A stretch of 64,000 nucleotides of DNA, taken from NCBI RefSeq assembly GCF_013340305.1, contig NZ_BLVP01000008.1:235408-299407 (forward strand). Direction: 5' to 3'. The notes below the pieces were generated by a model. The model was not told where the DNA came from, ran no database searches, and worked only from the letters and a program-made list of their open reading frames with translations. Origin of the DNA: Desulfovibrio psychrotolerans (lineage in GTDB: Bacteria > Desulfobacterota > Desulfovibrionia > Desulfovibrionales > Desulfovibrionaceae). Position 1 is the first letter of the stretch, and each line of letters begins with the position of its first letter. Positions 19,147 through 39,440 of this stretch are shown here, piece after piece. A program made the translations under genes and the position numbers.

Positions 19147-19815
19147 CTATCCCTGCGCTGCCGCAGCAGTGTCCGCCGCCGGTGCGGAAAGCAGGGAGAG
19201 GCACGCTTCCCTGCCCATGGCGTGCAGGCTGTTTCTGGCGTCCTCGTTTTCGCGCAGCTCCTGCGGGCCGTCCATGCCGTAGAAGAGCAACGGCTCCTGC
19301 AGGACGAAGTTGAACGGCCTGAGGAAGCACTTCAGCGTGAGGATGCTGCCCTCGAACAGTTTTTCGCCGCGCGGGCGTGCTCCGGCCATGGCGAGATAGG
19401 CCTTGCGCTCCGGCAGGTCCAGCATGGCCCGGTCACCGGACTGGTGCCGCATCCAGAAGCACTGGCAGCGGTCGATGAAGGTTTTGAAGTGCGAAGGCAC
19501 ATGGTAGAAATAGACGGGCGAGGCAAAGAACAGCACGGGAGACTGCAACAGCATGCGGAACAACTCGCCGCTCTGGTCTTCCTTTTCTAGAAAGCAGGCC
19601 TTGGAAGGGTCGTGCTCGCACCGCTGGCAGGAAACGCAGTGGTGTACATCGTAATGACGCAGGAGCACCAGCCGGGTTCTGCATCCCGCCGCCTCTGCGC
19701 CATCGAGAAAGAGGCGGCAGGCGTGGTCGCTGTTGCCGCCCGCGCGGGGGCTGCACGACACGGCCACAACCTGCGGAGGGCCGCTCTGTTCAGGTGAGGT
19801 CTTTTTCGTTTCCAT
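19147..19815 (-). CDS. Iron-sulfur flavoprotein (Isf-like, flavodoxin fold)
   Basis: 222 residues of the NADPH-dependent FMN reductase superfamily. FMN-phosphate loop SCSPRAGGNSD near 20-30. The compact cysteine motif C-x2-C-x2-C-x7-C (starting CVSCQRC near 60) is the 4Fe-4S signature of Isf proteins. The second flavin-binding segment is SPVYFYHVPSHFKTFIDR. Isf proteins pass electrons between ferredoxin-like donors and acceptors in anaerobes, including O2/H2O2 reduction. Starts inside the last codons of the TusA-like gene (26-bp overlap, different frame), with AAGGA upstream; comF follows after 4 bases. Confidence 0.85.
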   Translation of the reverse strand: METKKTSPEQSGPPQVVAVSCSPRAGGNSDHACRLFLDGAEAAGCRTRLVLLRHYDVHHCVSCQRCEHDPSKACFLEKEDQSGELFRMLLQSPVLFFASPVYFYHVPSHFKTFIDRCQCFWMRHQSGDRAMLDLPERKAYLAMAGARPRGEKLFEGSILTLKCFLRPFNFVLQEPLLFYGMDGPQELRENEDARNSLHAMGREACLSLLSAPAADTAAAAQG

Positions 19816-20101
19816 TATCTCTGTCCTTGCCGGGCGGCGGAGAAGCTGCGGGAAGGCGTCTTGTGCATTGCGCCCGCAATCCGCCTTCCGGCCCGTCGTG
19901 CATTGAGAGGGCCATGTCCCACCGCGGTTCTATGTGCAGCGCATGTTCCACCTGCGGGGCCGCGTCCTGCGCCACGAGAAAGGCTATGCTCGCTCCTTTG
20001 TGAAAGCGGAGATACCAACTTATCTCCAGGCTCACGCCTCAGCATTTGTTCCGCAGGTCAATGACGGTCTGGTCAGCCTGTACTGCTTCTGCCGGTGTCA
20101 T
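19790..20101 (-). CDS. TusA-like sulfurtransferase, probable selenoprotein (in-frame UGA)
   Basis: From the ATG at 20101 (AGGAGG seven bases upstream), 104 codons are open except for one TGA at 20039-20041 (codon 21). Read through, the protein gives VIDLRNKC-U-GVSLEISWYL followed by a second strand/helix and AQCTRR, the layout of the TusA/SirA fold. In TusA the motif is D-L-R-G-x-x-C-P; counting from the Asp, the UGA falls exactly on the catalytic Cys. A perfect 7-bp hairpin follows the UGA (20000-20035). UGA decoding is supported independently by fdhA2 in this window. It sits 17 bp after an MBL gene and overlaps an iron-sulfur flavoprotein gene. Alternative: a 20-codon leader peptide plus pseudogene. 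Confidence 0.72.
20000..20035 (-). promoter_or_regulatory. SECIS-like hairpin of the TusA-like gene
   Basis: Just after the UGA, arms GGAGATA and TATCTCC enclose the loop AGUUGG. An outer stem GUGAG/UUCAC lies across a small internal loop. The apical loop starts about 19 bases after the UGA and contains GU, in line with bacterial SECIS elements that recruit SelB. Not proven functionally. Confidence 0.6.
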
Positions 20102-20118
20102 GTTTGCGCCTCCTGCCG

Positions 20119-20760
20119 TCAGCGGATGAATTCCGTGAAGAACGGGTTGTTCAGGCGCTCATCGCCCACAGAGGTTTCCGGGCCGTGCCCGGAGAAGACC
20201 ACGGTTTCTTCCGGCAGGGTGAAAATTTTGCGCGTAACGGATTTGGTCAGGTCCGGCATACTGCCGCCGGGAAAATCCGTGCGCCCTATGGAGCGGTAGA
20301 AAAGCAGGTCGCCCACGAAGACGGCCGGGACGCCCAAGCCGTCCGGGAAGAAAAAGGACAGGCTGCCCGGCGTGTGCCCGGGGGTGTGCAGCACCGAACA
20401 GGGAAGCCCCATGAAGGTGTATTCGCCTTCATCAATGGTTTCGTAGGCGAAGGGGGTAACTTTGGGGAAGCCCCACATGCCGCCGGAACCGAGTTCGGAG
20501 TCGAGCATGTAGGCATCCTTGGCGCAGGCAAGAATGGGCGCGCCCGTGGCGGCGTGCAGTGCCTGATTGCCGTAGATATGGTCAAAATGCAGGTGCGTGT
20601 TCAGGATGTGGGTGAGGGTGAGGTTGTTCGCCTTCAGAAAAGCCACCACCTCTGCGGGGTCGCCGCCGGGGTCCACGGCAACGGCGAGGGTGCCGCTCCA
20701 CGCGACGTGGCAGTTGGTGTCCAGCGGACCGAGAGGAAAGCTGCGTATCTGCATGATCAT
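20119..20760 (-). CDS. MBL-fold metallo-hydrolase, glyoxalase II-like
   Basis: 213 residues with the complete metal-binding set: THLHFDH near 55, HTPGHTPGS near 123, VGDLLF near 150 and SGHGPETSVGDER near 190. This is the YcbL/GloB-like group, which includes thioester hydrolases and persulfide dioxygenases; specificity cannot be told from sequence alone. Its ATG overlaps the nitroreductase stop (ATGA) and the TusA-like gene follows after 17 bp, hinting at a role in sulfur or thiol chemistry. Confidence 0.87.
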   Translation of the reverse strand: MIMQIRSFPLGPLDTNCHVAWSGTLAVAVDPGGDPAEVVAFLKANNLTLTHILNTHLHFDHIYGNQALHAATGAPILACAKDAYMLDSELGSGGMWGFPKVTPFAYETIDEGEYTFMGLPCSVLHTPGHTPGSLSFFFPDGLGVPAVFVGDLLFYRSIGRTDFPGGSMPDLTKSVTRKIFTLPEETVVFSGHGPETSVGDERLNNPFFTEFIR

Positions 20761-21317
20761 TTCTCCAGCATGTAGGCTTCAAGCGGGTTGCGGTCGGCAA
20801 CGCCCGGCTGGGCGGGATGCCCTGTGGCAAGAAAGGTGATGAATTCGTAGTCGCTTTCGGAGAGGTTCAGGGCGGCGAGCACCTGCGGGGCATTGTTCAT
20901 CATCTGTCCCAGCCATACCGTGCCCAGCCCCAGTGCGTGGGCCGCCAGCATCATGTTCTGCAGGCAGGCGCCCGCGGCCTGATGGTCCTTGAACGGGTGA
21001 TAGGTGGCTGTGCGGTCCAGAAACAGGCCGATAAGGACCGGGGCGGCAAGGACGATGTGGCTGTATTTGGTGAGCGTGGACAGCGTGTGTACGCGTGCGT
21101 CCCCCTTGCGTATGACCAGAAAGCGGAAGGGCTGGTTGTTCAGTCCGCTGGGTGCCCAGCGACCTGCCTCCAGAATGGCGGTAACAGCCTCCTCGGAAAC
21201 GGGGTCTTCCGTAAACTTGCGGATGCTGCGGCGCTCCTGAATGGCGCGAAGAACGGCCTTGGCATCAGGATATTCCGGGGAAGGGCCAAATGAATTGCCG
21301 GGGGGATGGACGGACAT
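20757..21317 (-). CDS. Nitroreductase-family flavoprotein
   Basis: 186 residues with the FMN-binding nitroreductase pattern: RRSIRKFTEDPVS near 29, WAPSGLNNQPF near 54, a conserved mid-protein helix and GLGTVWLGQM near 133. The reaction is probably NAD(P)H-dependent reduction of an unknown substrate. The ATG at 21317 has AGGAGC upstream. First gene of a compact minus-strand set running through the MBL hydrolase, TusA-like protein, Isf and ComF, all with overlaps or gaps under 20 bp. Confidence 0.87.
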   Translation of the reverse strand: MSVHPPGNSFGPSPEYPDAKAVLRAIQERRSIRKFTEDPVSEEAVTAILEAGRWAPSGLNNQPFRFLVIRKGDARVHTLSTLTKYSHIVLAAPVLIGLFLDRTATYHPFKDHQAAGACLQNMMLAAHALGLGTVWLGQMMNNAPQVLAALNLSESDYEFITFLATGHPAQPGVADRNPLEAYMLEK

Positions 21318-21394
21318 GCATGCTCCTGTGTGCGGTCGTCGCGTTGCGCCGTGCGTGGCACGGGCCGTGCGGCAACGCGGTATAGGTTGTGCTA

Positions 21395-31935: not shown

Positions 31936-34900
31936 TTACGCTCCCTGCTTCTTTCTGACATTGACCATGAACGCCTTGCTCTCCGGTATGCCGGTGTTGG
32001 GGTCGCCCACGGAGGGGGTGAGGAGGTTGGCGGAATCTCCGCCGTTTTTAGGTTCTACCCAGCCATAGTGCCAAGGCATGCCGATCATATGCACGGTGTT
32101 GCCCTGCACCTTGAACGGCTTGATGCGCTTGGTGACGATGGCTACGCAGTCCACTTCGCCTCGCAGGCTGGTTACGGTGACCATCTCGCCACCGACGATG
32201 CCGCGTAGCTTAGCCAGTTCTTCACTTATTTCGCAGAACATCTGTGGTTCGGCCTCAATGAGCCAGCCTTGGAAGCGGGTCATAAGACCAGTCTGCCAGT
32301 GTTCGGTAAGACGGTAGGTGGTGCCCACGAACGGGAAGCGCGGGTCGCACACGGCGTGCTCGTCGCCTGCTATCTTGAAGGCCGTGGGGTTGTTCAGCTG
32401 CCCGGAGAAGGGGTTATCCTTAATGGGGCATTCCATGGGTTCGTAGTGTTCCGGGAACGGTCCTTCCTGTCTGCCGGGGCCGAAAACATGGCCGAACCCG
32501 TGCTGCTGCATGATGAACGGGTGTCTGGTGCCGGGATCCCATGGTCCATCGGGAACGTCACCCTCCCATTTACCATCTACCCACTGCACCACGGTTTTCT
32601 GCGGTGCGTAAGGCTTGCCGGTAGCATCGCACGAAGCGCGGTTGTAGAGGATGCGGCGGTTTACCGGCCAGCACCAAGACCAGTTGGGGTACAGGCCTAT
32701 GTTTGCCTGCATCTCTGTCTGGGTTTTGTCGCGGCGGGCAGCCATGTTGCCGTTATCCGTGTACGAGCCGGTGTAGAGCCAGTTCCCCGCACAGGTGGAA
32801 CCATCGTCCGTGAGGAAAGCAAAGGCCGGAACCTGTTGTCCCTTCTTGAAGGACTTGCCGTTTACCTCTGTATCTTTGAGGAAGTAGCCGTTGATGAGCT
32901 TGGCAGCTTTGTGCGGGTCGAAGTGCCCGTGGTGGTTCTGCCAGTCCGCCGTGTTCACTCCCAGAATGGGATGGGGGAACGCGCCGCCTTCAATGCGGTA
33001 GAGTTCGCGGATTTTTTCCATCAGTCCAAGGATGATGTCGCCATCGGGCTTGGTATCCGCATACGGCTTGGGACCTTCGTAGCGCCACTGCATCCAGCGG
33101 CCCGAGTTGGTGATGGAACCTTCCTTCTCAACGGAAACGGCACAGGGCAGGAAGAAGACCTCTGTCTTGATCTTGGCGGGGTCCATGCCCGGCCCCTTCC
33201 AGAAGGAGCCTGTCTCGTTTTCGAAGATGTTGACGTTTACCATCCAGTCCAGCTGCCCCATAGACTCGCGGGTTCTGTTGGCGTTGGCACCGCCGCACGC
33301 GGGGTTCTGTCCCCATGCGAAGAAGCCTTTGAACTGGCCCTTCAGCATTTTGTCGAACATGCCCAGCCAGAAGTAGTCGGTTATGGGCTTGTGGGCGTCT
33401 ACCTTGGGCAGCCAGTTGTATGCTTCATCCAGCGTGGACGAGGGATACATGGCTTTAAGCAGACTGGCGAGGTATTTGGGTTTGTTGCCCCACCAGTTGG
33501 CGGACATGGGGTCCTTGCTGACGGGGGTGTTATTCTTGTTGTAGTCTGCAAGGGTGGGCCACTTGGAGTTGGGCACGGCCAGATAGCCGGGGATGATGTG
33601 CGCCAGCAGCGCCTGGTCCGTGGATCCCTGCACGTTTGATTCGCCGCGCATGGCATTTACGCCGCCGCCCGCAACGCCGATGTTGCCCAGCAGCAGCTGG
33701 ATGATGGACATGGTACGGATGTTCTGCACGCCCACCGTGTGCTGCGTCCAGCCCATGGCGTACATGATGGTGCCCGCTTTATCCTGCTTGCCCGTGGCGG
33801 CGTAGGCCTTGTAGACCTTGAGCAGGTCTTCCTTGGGAGTGCCGGTGGTGGAGGAAACCCTATCCAGCGTGTAGCGCTTGTAGTGTTCCTTCATCAGGTT
33901 GTACACGCAACGCGGGTTCTTGAGCGTGACATCACGCTTGGGAACGCCGTTTTCATCCATCTCGTAGGCCCAGGTGGATTTGTCGTAGGTGGCCGTTTTG
34001 GGATCAAACCCGGAGAACAGGCCGTTGCGGAAGGAATAGCCCTTGCCCACCACGAAAGCAGCGTTTGTATTGTTGACAACATATTCCTTAAAAATAAGGT
34101 TGTTATCAAGGATGTACTTGATCATGCCGCCAAGGAAGGCAATGTCTGTGCCGGAACGGAGCGGGGCGTAGATATCACACTTGGTGGATGTGCGGGTAAA
34201 GCGGGGGTCTACGTGGATGACCGTTGCTCCCTTATCCTTGGCGCGGAGCACCCACTTGAAGGAGATGGGGTGGTTTTCCGCAGCGTTGCTGCCCATGACC
34301 AAGATACAGTCACTGTTCTTAAGGTCGATCCAGTGGTTGGTCATGGCACCGCGCCCGAACGATTCTGCCAGTGCGGCAACGGTGGAACTGTGGCAAAGCC
34401 GTGCCTGATGTTCCACGTACACGAGGCCGAGGCTTCTGAGGAAGGTCTGGTATATCCAGCATTCCTCGTTATCCATTGCGGCGGAGCCTACGGAAGCGAT
34501 GGCGTCCGTGCGGTTGATGACTTCACCTTTGTCGTTCTTCAGGAAGAAGGCCTCGTCACGGGTTTTCTTCACCCGTTTGGCGATCTGCTCGTAGGCCCAT
34601 TCCCATGAAACGGGAGTCCATTCATTGCTGTAGGGCGCGCGGTACAGGGGGGTGGCGGGGCGTTTATCGTTTTCTGCAAGCTGCCAGATGGATGCGCCCT
34701 TGGCACACAGTGCGCCTTCGTTAATGGGATGGTCCGGATCGCCTTCCACGTTTATGGCGCGCCCCTGACCGTCTTTAGCCGTGTGCACCAGAAGACCGCA
34801 CCCGACCGCACAGTAGCAACAGACGGATGTTGTCTGCTTGGCCCAGTTCAGCTTGAGCAGCTGCGCCCGTGCTGCGGTGGGCTTAAGACTCAGCCCCAGC

Positions 34901-34968
34901 CCGCCAAAGGCGCTGACCGTGACCGCTCCGGCTGAAAGTTTGAGAAATTGCCTGCGAGAGACTGACAT
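31936..34968 (-). CDS. fdhA: Formate dehydrogenase catalytic subunit FdhA, Cys form (copy 1)
   Basis: 1010 residues of the Mo/W-bis-PGD formate dehydrogenase family. A twin-arginine signal (SVSRRQFLKLSAG) is followed by a 4Fe-4S site near 50-57 with a fourth Cys at 88. The catalytic residue is Cys192 in QARLCHSST (TGC). It oxidises formate to CO2 in the periplasm. Preceded by a 79-residue small gene (26 bases away) and followed by fdhB. Compared with copy 2, the N-terminal fifth is nearly identical and the centre and C-terminus are more diverged. In this copy the hairpin after the active-site codon is lost. Confidence 0.95.
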   Translation of the reverse strand: MSVSRRQFLKLSAGAVTVSAFGGLGLSLKPTAARAQLLKLNWAKQTTSVCCYCAVGCGLLVHTAKDGQGRAINVEGDPDHPINEGALCAKGASIWQLAENDKRPATPLYRAPYSNEWTPVSWEWAYEQIAKRVKKTRDEAFFLKNDKGEVINRTDAIASVGSAAMDNEECWIYQTFLRSLGLVYVEHQARLCHSSTVAALAESFGRGAMTNHWIDLKNSDCILVMGSNAAENHPISFKWVLRAKDKGATVIHVDPRFTRTSTKCDIYAPLRSGTDIAFLGGMIKYILDNNLIFKEYVVNNTNAAFVVGKGYSFRNGLFSGFDPKTATYDKSTWAYEMDENGVPKRDVTLKNPRCVYNLMKEHYKRYTLDRVSSTTGTPKEDLLKVYKAYAATGKQDKAGTIMYAMGWTQHTVGVQNIRTMSIIQLLLGNIGVAGGGVNAMRGESNVQGSTDQALLAHIIPGYLAVPNSKWPTLADYNKNNTPVSKDPMSANWWGNKPKYLASLLKAMYPSSTLDEAYNWLPKVDAHKPITDYFWLGMFDKMLKGQFKGFFAWGQNPACGGANANRTRESMGQLDWMVNVNIFENETGSFWKGPGMDPAKIKTEVFFLPCAVSVEKEGSITNSGRWMQWRYEGPKPYADTKPDGDIILGLMEKIRELYRIEGGAFPHPILGVNTADWQNHHGHFDPHKAAKLINGYFLKDTEVNGKSFKKGQQVPAFAFLTDDGSTCAGNWLYTGSYTDNGNMAARRDKTQTEMQANIGLYPNWSWCWPVNRRILYNRASCDATGKPYAPQKTVVQWVDGKWEGDVPDGPWDPGTRHPFIMQQHGFGHVFGPGRQEGPFPEHYEPMECPIKDNPFSGQLNNPTAFKIAGDEHAVCDPRFPFVGTTYRLTEHWQTGLMTRFQGWLIEAEPQMFCEISEELAKLRGIVGGEMVTVTSLRGEVDCVAIVTKRIKPFKVQGNTVHMIGMPWHYGWVEPKNGGDSANLLTPSVGDPNTGIPESKAFMVNVRKKQGA

Positions 34969-36407: not shown

Positions 36408-39400
36408 TTACGCTCCCTGCTTCTTTCTCACGTTAACCATGAACGCCTTGCTCTCCGGTATACCGGTGTTGGGGTCGCCCACGGAGGGGGTGAGGAGGTT
36501 GGCGGAATCTCCGCCGTTCTTGGGGGTGGTCCAGCCGTAATGCCAGGGCAGGCCGACCATATGAACTTCGCTGCCCAGCACCTTGAACGGTTTGATGCGC
36601 TTGGTGACAATGGCAACGCAGTCCAGTTCGCCGCGCAGGCTGGCGACCTTGACCAGTTCGCCGTTTTCTATGCCGCGCAGTTTGGCCAGTTCTTCGCTTA
36701 TTTCGCAGAAGAGCTGCGGTTCTGTTTCCAGCAGCCAAGGCGTGTTGCGGGTCATGTGGCCCGTCTGCCAGTGCTCGGTCACGCGGTAGGTGGTGCCGAT
36801 GAACGGGAAGCGCGGGTCGCACACGGCGTGCTCATCGCCTGCGATCTTGAAGGCCGTGGGGTTATGCAGCTGACCGGAGAAGGGGTTGTCCTTGACCGGG
36901 CATTCCAGCGGTTCATAGTGTTCCGGGAACGGACCTTCTTCACGGCCGGGGCCGTAGAGCTGACCGTAGCCGTGGGCCACCATGATGAAGGGGTTCTTCT
37001 CGCCGGGCTTCCAGCCGCCGTCCGGCACGTCGCCCACCCACTTTTCGCCGTCCCATTCGATGACGGACTTTGCAGGGGCGTAGGGCTTGCCTTCCGGTGT
37101 TACCGACGCGCGGTTGTACAGGATGCGGCGGTTTACGGGCCATGTCCACGACCAGTTGGGGTACAGGCCTATCTTGGCCTGCGCCTCGGTCTGGTTTTTG
37201 TCGCGGCGGGCAGCCATGTTGCCGTTGTCCGTGTAGGAACCGCTGTATATCCAGTTGCCGCTGCAGGTGGAGCCGTCGTCCGTGAGGAAGGCGAAGCTGG
37301 GAACCTGCTGGCCCTTGGTGAAGGTCTTTCCGTTTACCTCGGCATCTTTGAGGAAGTAACCGTTGATGAGCTTGGCCACACGGTGCGGATCGAAATGGCC
37401 GTGATGGTCCTGCCAGTCCGCCGTGTTGAGAGCCATGACCGGATGCGGGAACGCGCCGCCTTCTATGCGGTAGAGTTCACGAATCTTTTCGGCCAGTTCA
37501 AGGATGATGTCGCCGTCAGGCTTGGTCTCTGCGTACGGCTTGGGCCCAACATAGCGCCATTGCATCAGGCGGCCGGAGTTGGAGATGGAGCCTTCCTTTT
37601 CTATGGCGACTGCGCAGGGCAGGAAGAAGACTTCCGTCTTAATCTTGGCAGGGTCCATGCCCGGTCCCTTCCAGAAGGAGCCGGTTTCGTTGTCAAAGAT
37701 GTTGACGTTTACCATCCAGTCCAGCTGGCCCATGGCCTCGCGGGTCTTGTTGGCGTTGGCACCGCTGCACGCGGGGTTTTGGCCCCATGCGAAGAAGCCC
37801 TTGAACTGGCCCTTCAGCATTTTGTCGAACATGCCCATCCAGAAGTACTGGGTAACGGGCTTGTGCGCGTCCAGCTTGGGCAGCCATTTATAGGCGTCTT
37901 CCAGCGTTGCCGCGGGATACAGGGCCTTGAGCAGGCTGGCAACGTACTTGGGCTTGTTGCCCCACCAGTTGGCGGACAGGGGGTCCTTGCTGACGGGAGT
38001 ATTGTTTTTGTTGTAGTCCGCAAGGGTGGGCCACTTGGAGGTGGGCACACCCAGATAGCCGGGAATGATGTGCGCCAGCAGCGCCTGGTCTGTGGAACCC
38101 TGCACGTTGGCTTCGCCGCGCAGGGCGTTCACGCCGCCGCCTGCCACGCCGATGTTGCCCAGCAGCAGCTGGATGATGGCCATGGCGCGGATGTTCTGCA
38201 CGCCCACGGAGTGCTGGGTCCAGCCCATGGCGTACATGATGGTGCCTGCCTTGTCCTGCTTGCCCGTGGCGGCATAGGCCTTGTAGACCTTGAGCAGGTC
38301 TTCCTTGGGGGTGCCGGTGATGGAGGATACCTTGTCCAGCGTGTAACGCTTGTAGTGTTCCTTCATCAGGTTGTACACGCAGCGCGGGTTCTTGAGGGTG
38401 GCGTCTTTCTTCGGAACGCCGTTCTCATCGGTTTCGTACTTCCATTTGGTCTTGTCGTAGGAAGACGTGGCGGGGTTGAACCCGGAGAACAGGCCGTTAC
38501 GGAAGGAGTAGTCCTTGCCCACGATGAACGAAGCGTTGGTGTAGTTGATCATGTACTCCCTGAAGAACAGTTCGTTATCCAGAATGTACTTGATCATGCC
38601 GCCAAGGAAGGGGATGTCCGCCCCGGAACGGATGGGGGCGTAAATATCACACTTGGTGGATGTGCGGGTGTAGCGGGGGTCTACATGGATGAGGGTTGCG
38701 CCCGCATCCTTTGCCTTGAGCACCCACTTGAAGGAGATGGGATGGTTTTCGGCAGCGTTGCTGCCCATTATCAGAATGCAATCACTGTTCTTGAGGTCGA
38801 TCCAGTGGTTGGTCATCGCGCCGCGTCCGAACGACTCTGCCAGAGCCGCTACAGTTGCGCTGTGTCAGATCCGCGCCTGGTGCTCTATGTACACCAGGCC
38901 GAGGCTTCTGAGAAATGCCTGATATATCCAGCATTCCTCGTTATCCATTGCGGCGGAGCCTACGGAGGCCATGGCGTCCGTACGGTTGATGACTTCGCCT
39001 TTGTCGTTCTTCAGGAAAAATGCCTCGTCACGGGTTTTTTTCACCCGCTTGGCGATCTGCTCGTATGCCCATTCCCATGAAACGGGGGTCCACTTATCAC
39101 TGTAAGGGGCGCGGTACAGGGGGGTGGAAATGCGCTTGTCATTTTCTGCAAGCTGCCAGATGGAAGCGCCCTTGGCGCAGAGTGCGCCTTCGTTGATGGG
39201 ATGGTCCGGATCGCCTTCCACGTTTATGGCGCGCCCCTGACCGTCTTTAGCCGTGTGCACCAGAAGGCCGCACCCGACGGAACAGTAACAACAGACGGAC
39301 GTTGTCTGCTTGGCCCAGTTCAGCTTGAGCAGCTGCGCCCGGGCTTCGGTGGGCTTAAGGCTCAGGCCCAGCCCGCCGAAGGCGGTGGCTGTGGCGGCTC

Positions 39401-39440
39401 CGGCCGAAAGCTTGAGAAATTGTCTGCGAGAGACTGACAT
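36408..39440 (-). CDS. fdhA: Formate dehydrogenase catalytic subunit FdhA, selenocysteine form (copy 2)
   Basis: 1010 residues when the TGA at 38865-38867 is read as selenocysteine (residue 192, QARI-U-HSAT). Without recoding it would be two fragments split exactly at the active site, so this is a selenoprotein and not a pseudogene. Tat signal, 4Fe-4S site and pterin-binding domains as in copy 1. The two flanking FdhA proteins of this locus have Cys at the same position. Sec enzymes of this family are generally faster and more oxygen-sensitive. A 9-bp hairpin follows the TGA. Automated callers would truncate this gene. Confidence 0.95.
38830..38850 (-). promoter_or_regulatory. SECIS-like hairpin in fdhA2
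   Basis: Arms AGCGGCTCT and AGAGTCGTT (with G-U pairs) around loop GGC, 15-17 bases after the UGA. The aligned segments in fdhA1 and fdhA3 carry changes that break the stem, as expected where Cys needs no SECIS. Confidence 0.65.

Follow-up and report, generated by a model that had tools for sequence, protein, structure and literature searches.

The window, by which we mean the whole 64,000-nucleotide stretch of Desulfovibrio psychrotolerans DNA analysed here, carries on its minus strand a putative selenoprotein gene at 19790..20101. The gene runs from an ATG at 20101-20099 to a terminal TGA at 19792-19790, its sole internal TGA is codon 21 (20041..20039, minus strand), and the product comprises 103 residues, Sec included. 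A single TGA at codon 21 of an otherwise open frame is what a preliminary description of this DNA had reported, and this is borne out, as is the strong ribosome-binding site claimed there, AGGAGG at 20109..20114 on the minus strand, separated by a 7-nt spacer from the ATG. Read on the plus strand the same interval gives an unrelated frame, and that reading was dropped. Around the UGA the protein would read D15-L-R-N-K-C20-U21-G, which places Sec21 six residues past Asp15, the spacing claimed from the Asp of D-L-R, and directly beside a Cys (codon 20042..20044, minus strand) with which it forms a C-U pair. Under the standard code only an 81-residue ORF is obtained, starting from a GTG just past the UGA, in line with the fragment predicted for standard gene callers. 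Downstream of the UGA, at 20008..20027 on the minus strand, lies a SECIS-like hairpin of 7 bp (8 with a U-G pair) that reads GGAGATA / AGUUGG / UAUCUCC from 20027 to 20008, with AGUUGG as its loop and 18 nt from UGA to loop. This is the 7-bp hairpin that had been placed within 20000-20035, and its first base is, as had been said, the 12th after the UGA.

Directly downstream, on the same strand, is a gene for an iron-sulfur-flavoprotein-like FMN reductase (19147..19815; PF03358, E 2.1e-15) with the motif CX2CX2CX7C; this gene starts at an ATG inside the selenoprotein gene, with which it shares 26 nt. Directly upstream, also on the minus strand, an MBL-fold hydrolase gene of the YcbL/glyoxalase II-like type (20119..20760; PF00753, E 2.3e-27) ends 17 nt ahead of the selenoprotein gene, and upstream of it in turn lies a nitroreductase-family gene (20757..21317, minus strand; PF00881, E 6.2e-30, scanned as 20757-21320 with one extra codon). 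Because of the overlap on one side and the 17-nt gap on the other, the flavoprotein, selenoprotein and MBL genes are probably one operon. The operon was overlooked in the preliminary description, as were the adjacent Cys20 and the wide family to which the gene belongs.

The window also holds two formate dehydrogenase alpha genes, both on the minus strand. One, fdhA (36408-39440), contains one UGA at 38865-38867; the second (31936-34968) is 86% identical to it and has Cys at the UGA site. At the level of sequence this pair is an internal example of the same UGA/Cys exchange that we describe below. The earlier statement that the organism "demonstrably" decodes UGA as Sec in this gene is too strong, since it is the decoding machinery and the comparison with the Cys copy that speak for it.

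Conservation of the UGA and of the decoding machinery

A search with the translated selenoprotein across 149 genomes, that of the window and those of relatives, gave matches in 81 (the window's own counted), and all 81 were read, 23 of them from the search coordinates (for these the motif regular expressions gave no match in 20 cases and a wrong match in 3). The column of codon 21 is TGA in 80 of the 81, and in those 80 it is never TAA or TAG. An Asp stands six residues before U in all 80 UGA-containing homologues and a Cys directly before it in 79; in the remaining one, locus L100 in genome G001, Gly precedes Sec. Among the 79 proteins of the family alignment and profile (A1, from which L069 and L095 were left out for their long tails) the residue after U is G in 60, H in 14, R in 3 and A in 1, the last row having T as part of a C-P-C-T form. 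The objection, raised earlier, that homologues might have unrelated residues or stops here is not borne out, relatives keeping the UGA or, among paralogues, showing Cys. Nor was a loss of conservation seen downstream of the UGA, where each of the 15 pairs chosen has a lower pN than pS.

The exchange of Sec for Cys, which had been proposed as a check on homologues, is seen in paralogues. Re-searching 20 genomes with the profile yielded 18 lower-scoring, stop-free paralogues (L133, L149, L151, L153-L161 and L244-L249), all of which were read. Each has Cys in the UGA column (18/18), for example DLREVC-C-GLVPAI, within the motif x-C-G-[LTM]-[VIM]-P. In HHalign, 12 of these paralogues score 98.6% against the UGA family, with Cys exactly in the Sec column; the paralogues differ in lacking the UGA and in the position of Cys20, which is variable there (C, T, V, M, K or A). 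One of them, L133, was scanned against Pfam and gave no match. A rarer case is the orthologue in G142, the one among the 81 matches that has C-P-C-T instead of C-U-G, its new Cys being offset by one residue. In this assembly, which is 85% complete, we found no SelA and no SelB above the cut-off, and the two same-genus genomes G096 and G144 have SelA and SelB and keep the UGA. The loss of the UGA alongside absent SelA and SelB is suggestive of a Sec/Cys exchange, with the reservation that at 85% completeness the absence of both proteins may be an assembly gap.

More broadly, SelA is present in 77 of the 80 UGA genomes (in G139 as a fragment only). The three without it, G035, G141 and G148, are 84, 77 and 63% complete, and each has SelB above the cut-off. 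SelA does occur without the selenoprotein: in the 149-genome search, 48 of 125 SelA-bearing genomes have no match to it. In the window's own genome selA, selB and a tRNA-Sec (79.4 bits, cut-off 47) are all found, contrary to the possibility, raised earlier, that the machinery might be missing from it. In the window itself Rfam at its gathering thresholds returned nothing and ARAGORN no tRNA.

Could the UGA simply be a stop, ending a 20-residue leader after which translation reinitiates two codons later or further on? Start-type codons do occur in suitable places: two codons past the UGA there is GTG in 42 of the 80 and TTG in 9, and in 12 of the 80 an ATG falls among the first 12 codons. However, at the position two codons past the UGA 29 of the 80 have no start-type codon and none has ATG, the stop is always TGA and never TAA or TAG in all 80, the paralogues carry Cys in its column, and both the upstream D-x-x-x-x-C motif and the hairpin are conserved, all of which counts against a plain stop. 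We therefore regard this explanation as very improbable indeed.

The family is common in the class. Its profile matches 155 of 297 genomes drawn from the class, two of them via the stop-free relative only, and among the class matches listed 149 of 150 have at least one in-frame TGA, the exception being G142. Five further class-matching genomes, re-searched, gave three with a UGA copy and two with only the stop-free relative. A draw from the phylum gave matches in 6 of 395 genomes, all within the window's own family. Cultured environmental members that hold the gene include Fundidesulfovibrio agrisoli (L194), Solidesulfovibrio alcoholivorans (L193) and Pseudodesulfovibrio pelocollis (L208). Scanning the DNA of one genome per species for a pattern gave 50 stretches, 47 of which read as the selenoprotein family, the records being labelled Desulfovibrio-type bacteria or unclassified delta- or Proteobacteria bins; the other three (Chitinophagaceae, Sungiibacteriota and Prevotella) have no features of the family and were taken as chance. 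Since the scan is incomplete, the known holders G005 and G079 being among the genomes that it missed, it does not prove that the family is absent elsewhere. Viral contigs gave no match to one family pattern. Two loci of a single genus look degenerate, L142 (in G231) with an extra in-frame TAA and L152 (in G207) with a diverged motif; the stop-free paralogue is retained in both genomes.

The hairpin downstream of the UGA

Across the family, the 45 bases from the UGA onwards can be aligned gap-free. As coded here, the published bacterial SECIS model of PMC13188914 (a loop of 3-9 nt, a stem of 4-16 bp, G in the first two loop bases, a spacing of 16-37 nt and -7.5 kcal/mol) agrees at all four coded criteria with the window site, which has 8 bp, a 6-nt loop with G second, 18 nt and -9.0. 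In a folding check, which had been suggested earlier, 62 bases of the window taken alone do not stand out (z -1.65), 12 of 200 shuffles folding equally well. Family-wide the SECIS model fits 62 of the 80 Sec-UGA sites and fails at 18. As controls we took the terminal UGAs of these genes, of which it fits 12 of 56, shuffled sequences (95 of 800) and TGAs picked at random (100 of 796). When synonymous codons are re-drawn, the hairpin energy of the window is matched by 0.65% of 2000 draws, and that of four other members by 1.0, 10.3, 1.25 and 9.5%; the result is thus weak in two of the five members by energy (9.5 and 10.3%) and in three of the five by paired bases (11-51%).

Covariation was assessed on the 76 distinct sequences (A2) among the 80 hairpins. 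Over all 76, pairing in the 7-bp stem reaches 85.0% (shuffles, 79.0%), and two of the stems slid along the alignment as controls covary about equally, with a score of 0.214 at +2 against 0.205 for the true stem and 38 doubly changed cells at -2 against 36. For the 76 distinct sequences taken as one set RNAalifold predicts no pair, since part of the family forms a different stem. A clear hairpin emerges only once the set is split into 60 and 16 sequences (A3 and A4) on the 5' arm, a division made after the alignment had been seen. In the 60 the stem is 96.4% paired, compared with 89.7% in shuffles and 66.7% in the best slid control, and RNAalifold finds six pairs. Pairs 16-33, 17-32, 18-31, 19-30 and 20-29 form in 60 of 60 sequences. 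Pair 19-30 is A-U in 29, G-C in 21 and G-U in 10, with 21 compensatory changes, and at pair 15-34 both sides are changed in 6; two of the five measures on this subset do not stand out, being equalled or exceeded in 105 and 44 of 500 shuffles. In the other 16 sequences the stem has 6 bp and the loop 4 bases; pairing is 91.7% and covariation weak (28 of 500 or more).

Since the stem also encodes protein (E-[IV]-x-W-[YH]-L), we permuted codons within each amino acid, such that Tyr, His and Arg codons were swapped only among sequences with the same residue. The set consisted of the 58 distinct sequences among 61 that share the GAG-[AG]T arm, and the procedure controls for the protein, not for shared ancestry. 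At pair 19-30 (n=58) we observe 0 mismatches where 9.07 are expected, and none of 20,000 permutations is as low. On the evidence of the column and of the covariation, reinitiation, a plain stop and read-through by another residue were all set aside. Our reading of these alignments is that the UGA-interrupted gene is almost certainly a selenoprotein gene: SelB would bind the hairpin, which starts 11 nt past the UGA, and the UGA would be decoded as Sec.

Predicted fold and the relation to TusA

The preliminary description called the protein TusA-like. On the side of sequence we find little of this. The Pfam TusA model PF01206 matches 0 of 79 members at E 1, NCBIfam gives no meaningful match among the same 79 (best E 0.077), and a sequence search of the PDB with the family profile returns nothing credible (best E 0.077). 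HHalign scores the family against a local TusA/YedF set at 1.5% (pairwise P 0.014) and the Cys paralogue at 20.6% (P 0.00022), the set being 24 fragments from local PF01206 loci, many of them YedF-like and one a wrong-frame pick (L225). Weak as both alignments are, each sets the U column against the Cys of TusA. We saw no CPxP in the selenoprotein family, which has C-U-G in its place. By every one of these sequence tests, then, the selenoprotein is not a member of the TusA family.

On the side of structure, an AlphaFold2 model made from 43 sequences (alignment A5, the window plus 42 of 47 loci, with L182, L186, L188, L198 and L210 left out) has a mean pLDDT of 84.5 and a pTM of 0.69, with block means of 92-96 over residues 11-80. 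Its predicted elements are a strand at 12-15, a helix at 23-33, a strand at 38-43, a helix at 45-57 and strands at 61-67 and 75-81, in the order b-a-b-a-b-b, and Sec21 falls just ahead of the helix at 23-33. Foldseek against the PDB gives no match that reaches E 0.001, and the first is SpoVS at E 0.0063. The TusA-family structures 3hz7, 3lvj, 3lvk, 8k1r and 1dcj are found with probability 0.94-1.00 and E 0.017-0.17; the TusA/SirA matches at probability 1.00 lie at E 0.017-0.026, below SpoVS and an Alba-type protein in rank, and structures of Alba, IF3 and methyltransferases come at ranks similar to those of TusA. Single-domain TusA-family structures give a TM score (target) of 0.60-0.65.

The likeness to TusA/SirA (PF01206; E. 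coli TusA/YhhP 3lvj and 1dcj; SirA-like 3hz7) would lie in the predicted b-a-b-a-b-b order, in a similar size and in a putative reactive residue six past an Asp and just before helix 1; the differences are the missing Pfam match, C-U-G rather than CPxP, the adjacent Cys, and Sec rather than Cys. The label "TusA-like" has partial support, in the predicted order of elements and in the TusA structures among the Foldseek matches, but the silent Pfam model, the HHalign score and the lack of CPxP do not support it. Likewise the claim that UGA replaces the catalytic cysteine holds with respect to the Cys paralogue and by residue count, whereas homology to TusA is not proven. YedF (TIGR03527), as described in the part of PMC5322559 available to us, resembles our protein in being selenium-linked and in having a TusA-type domain, and differs in its two domains (TusA and DsrE), in having Cys and not Sec, in its CPxP motif and in its locus. 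In the window's genome there is one TusA-domain match, L112 (G000:C1:179159-179353), a YedF-like TusA+DsrE protein with CPQP.

To summarize the model, the product is likely a small single-domain b-a-b-a-b-b protein whose Sec sits in the loop ahead of helix 1, at the place of the reactive Cys in TusA, and it may well both adopt a TusA fold and act as proteins of that fold do. That Sec decoding in a new family and a TusA-type fold both hold appears to us probable, a judgement that does not extend to the relay role discussed next.

Discussion

What might a small protein with an adjacent Cys and Sec do in such an operon? We searched six-frame fragments of the 81 loci with profile HMMs for both neighbours, with limits of 400 nt on the same strand downstream and 500 nt upstream. 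The flavoprotein lies directly downstream of the selenoprotein gene in 73 of the 81 loci; the MBL hydrolase lies directly upstream in 62 and some 1.1-1.2 kb away on that side in another 7; in 3 no MBL gene was found nearby, and in 1 the contig ends. These counts are partly self-referring, because the HMMs were built from 51 and 55 sequences that come mostly from the same loci. Eight of the 81 loci (L050, L052, L059, L062, L076, L086, L097 and L098) have neither flavoprotein nor MBL neighbour. In L050, L052 and L076 a small ORF ending in IYFDKL lies upstream of the selenoprotein gene. The C-P-C-T form in G142 retains both neighbours. All 51 seed flavoproteins contain CX2CX2CX(n)C, which we take to be the compact motif of iron-sulfur flavoproteins, and by its sequence the downstream neighbour is a flavodoxin-like domain with a compact Cys motif, that is, a putative iron-sulfur flavoprotein. 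For the MBL protein the nearest PDB matches are 7ev5, 2xf4 (hydroxyacylglutathione hydrolase) and 2zwr.

The reading that we favour, from the operon and the motif, is that Cys20-Sec21 is a redox relay serving the flavoprotein, and we consider its chances about even. In such a relay Sec21 would pair with the adjoining Cys20, and the two would shuttle between the selenol/thiol and the selenenylsulfide state. The iron-sulfur flavoprotein from the next gene downstream would return the oxidised pair to its reduced state. Electrons would then pass from the pair to a substrate that is either oxidised or a sulfane-sulfur compound, and the upstream MBL hydrolase may take part in other steps on this substrate. 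Mammalian thioredoxin reductase offers a familiar parallel, its C-terminal GCUG containing an adjacent Cys and Sec that are reduced by the flavoprotein. There the Cys-Sec pair sits on the flavoprotein's own C-terminus, whereas here it is on a separate small protein.

The protein could instead be a Sec-containing carrier of sulfur or selenium, in which Sec or Cys20 ferries sulfane sulfur or selenium from the neighbours to an acceptor in the manner of TusA, and not electrons. The TusA-type order of elements, the presence of TusA and TsuB among the structural matches and the weak HHalign alignment that sets the U column on the TusA Cys all lean this way, as does the distant similarity of the MBL neighbour to ETHE1 (4chl, E 6.1e-15). 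Yet the MBL protein is closer to YcbL/glyoxalase II-type structures than to ETHE1, the evidence of CPxP, Pfam and HHalign runs against a TusA relationship, and a flavoprotein partner together with an adjacent C-U pair suggests redox chemistry. We hold a carrier role to be rather improbable.

A further possibility is that the C-U pair is a ligand for a soft metal or metalloid such as mercury or arsenic. In the part of PMC13188914 available to us the C-U families SaoL, SaoC, SaoB, MbdU and HgcA are linked to metals, some of them by name; the conserved neighbours found here, however, are a flavoprotein and an MBL hydrolase, and we think metal binding unlikely. The C-U selenoproteins SaoC, SaoL, MbdU, KCU-star and HgcA have the vicinal Cys-Sec in common with our protein, and none of the C-U selenoproteins in the table of PMC13188914 is entered as TusA/SirA.

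Returning to the redox relay, one may tentatively envisage a complete selenol redox system, with a TusA-fold Cys-Sec protein, its own iron-sulfur flavoprotein as reductant and a glyoxalase II-like hydrolase as partner, although we would not ourselves expect this fuller scheme to hold as stated.

The family appears to have gone undescribed so far. The table published in May 2026 counts 119 prokaryotic selenoprotein families and subfamilies (PMC13188914); our family is missing from it, and it has no TusA/SirA entry. The parts available to us of PMC9312934, PMC1794560, PMC2398784, PMC1914089, PMC4607533 and PMC5322559 contain no sign of the family. The deep-Sep scan (PMC12013277), in the part available, covers two Desulfovibrionia genomes, one of them a Desulfomicrobium, with no new family reported there; our G130, equal in length to that Desulfomicrobium genome, holds the gene. 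No description turned up in the papers that our literature search covered, and an earlier mention is possible. Such a gene is easily missed, since the standard code gives only a fragment and the Pfam and NCBIfam models do not cover the family.

The selenoprotein is a member of a seemingly undescribed family of the window's class of sulfate reducers, and this family, common as it is there, appears to add to the 119 already catalogued. It offers a natural Cys paralogue, a rare Sec-less orthologue and, in the iron-sulfur flavoprotein, a testable partner. If the proposed selenol system is real, it would take on in these sulfate reducers, for its substrate, the role that a low-molecular thiol or the thioredoxin/thioredoxin reductase couple has elsewhere.
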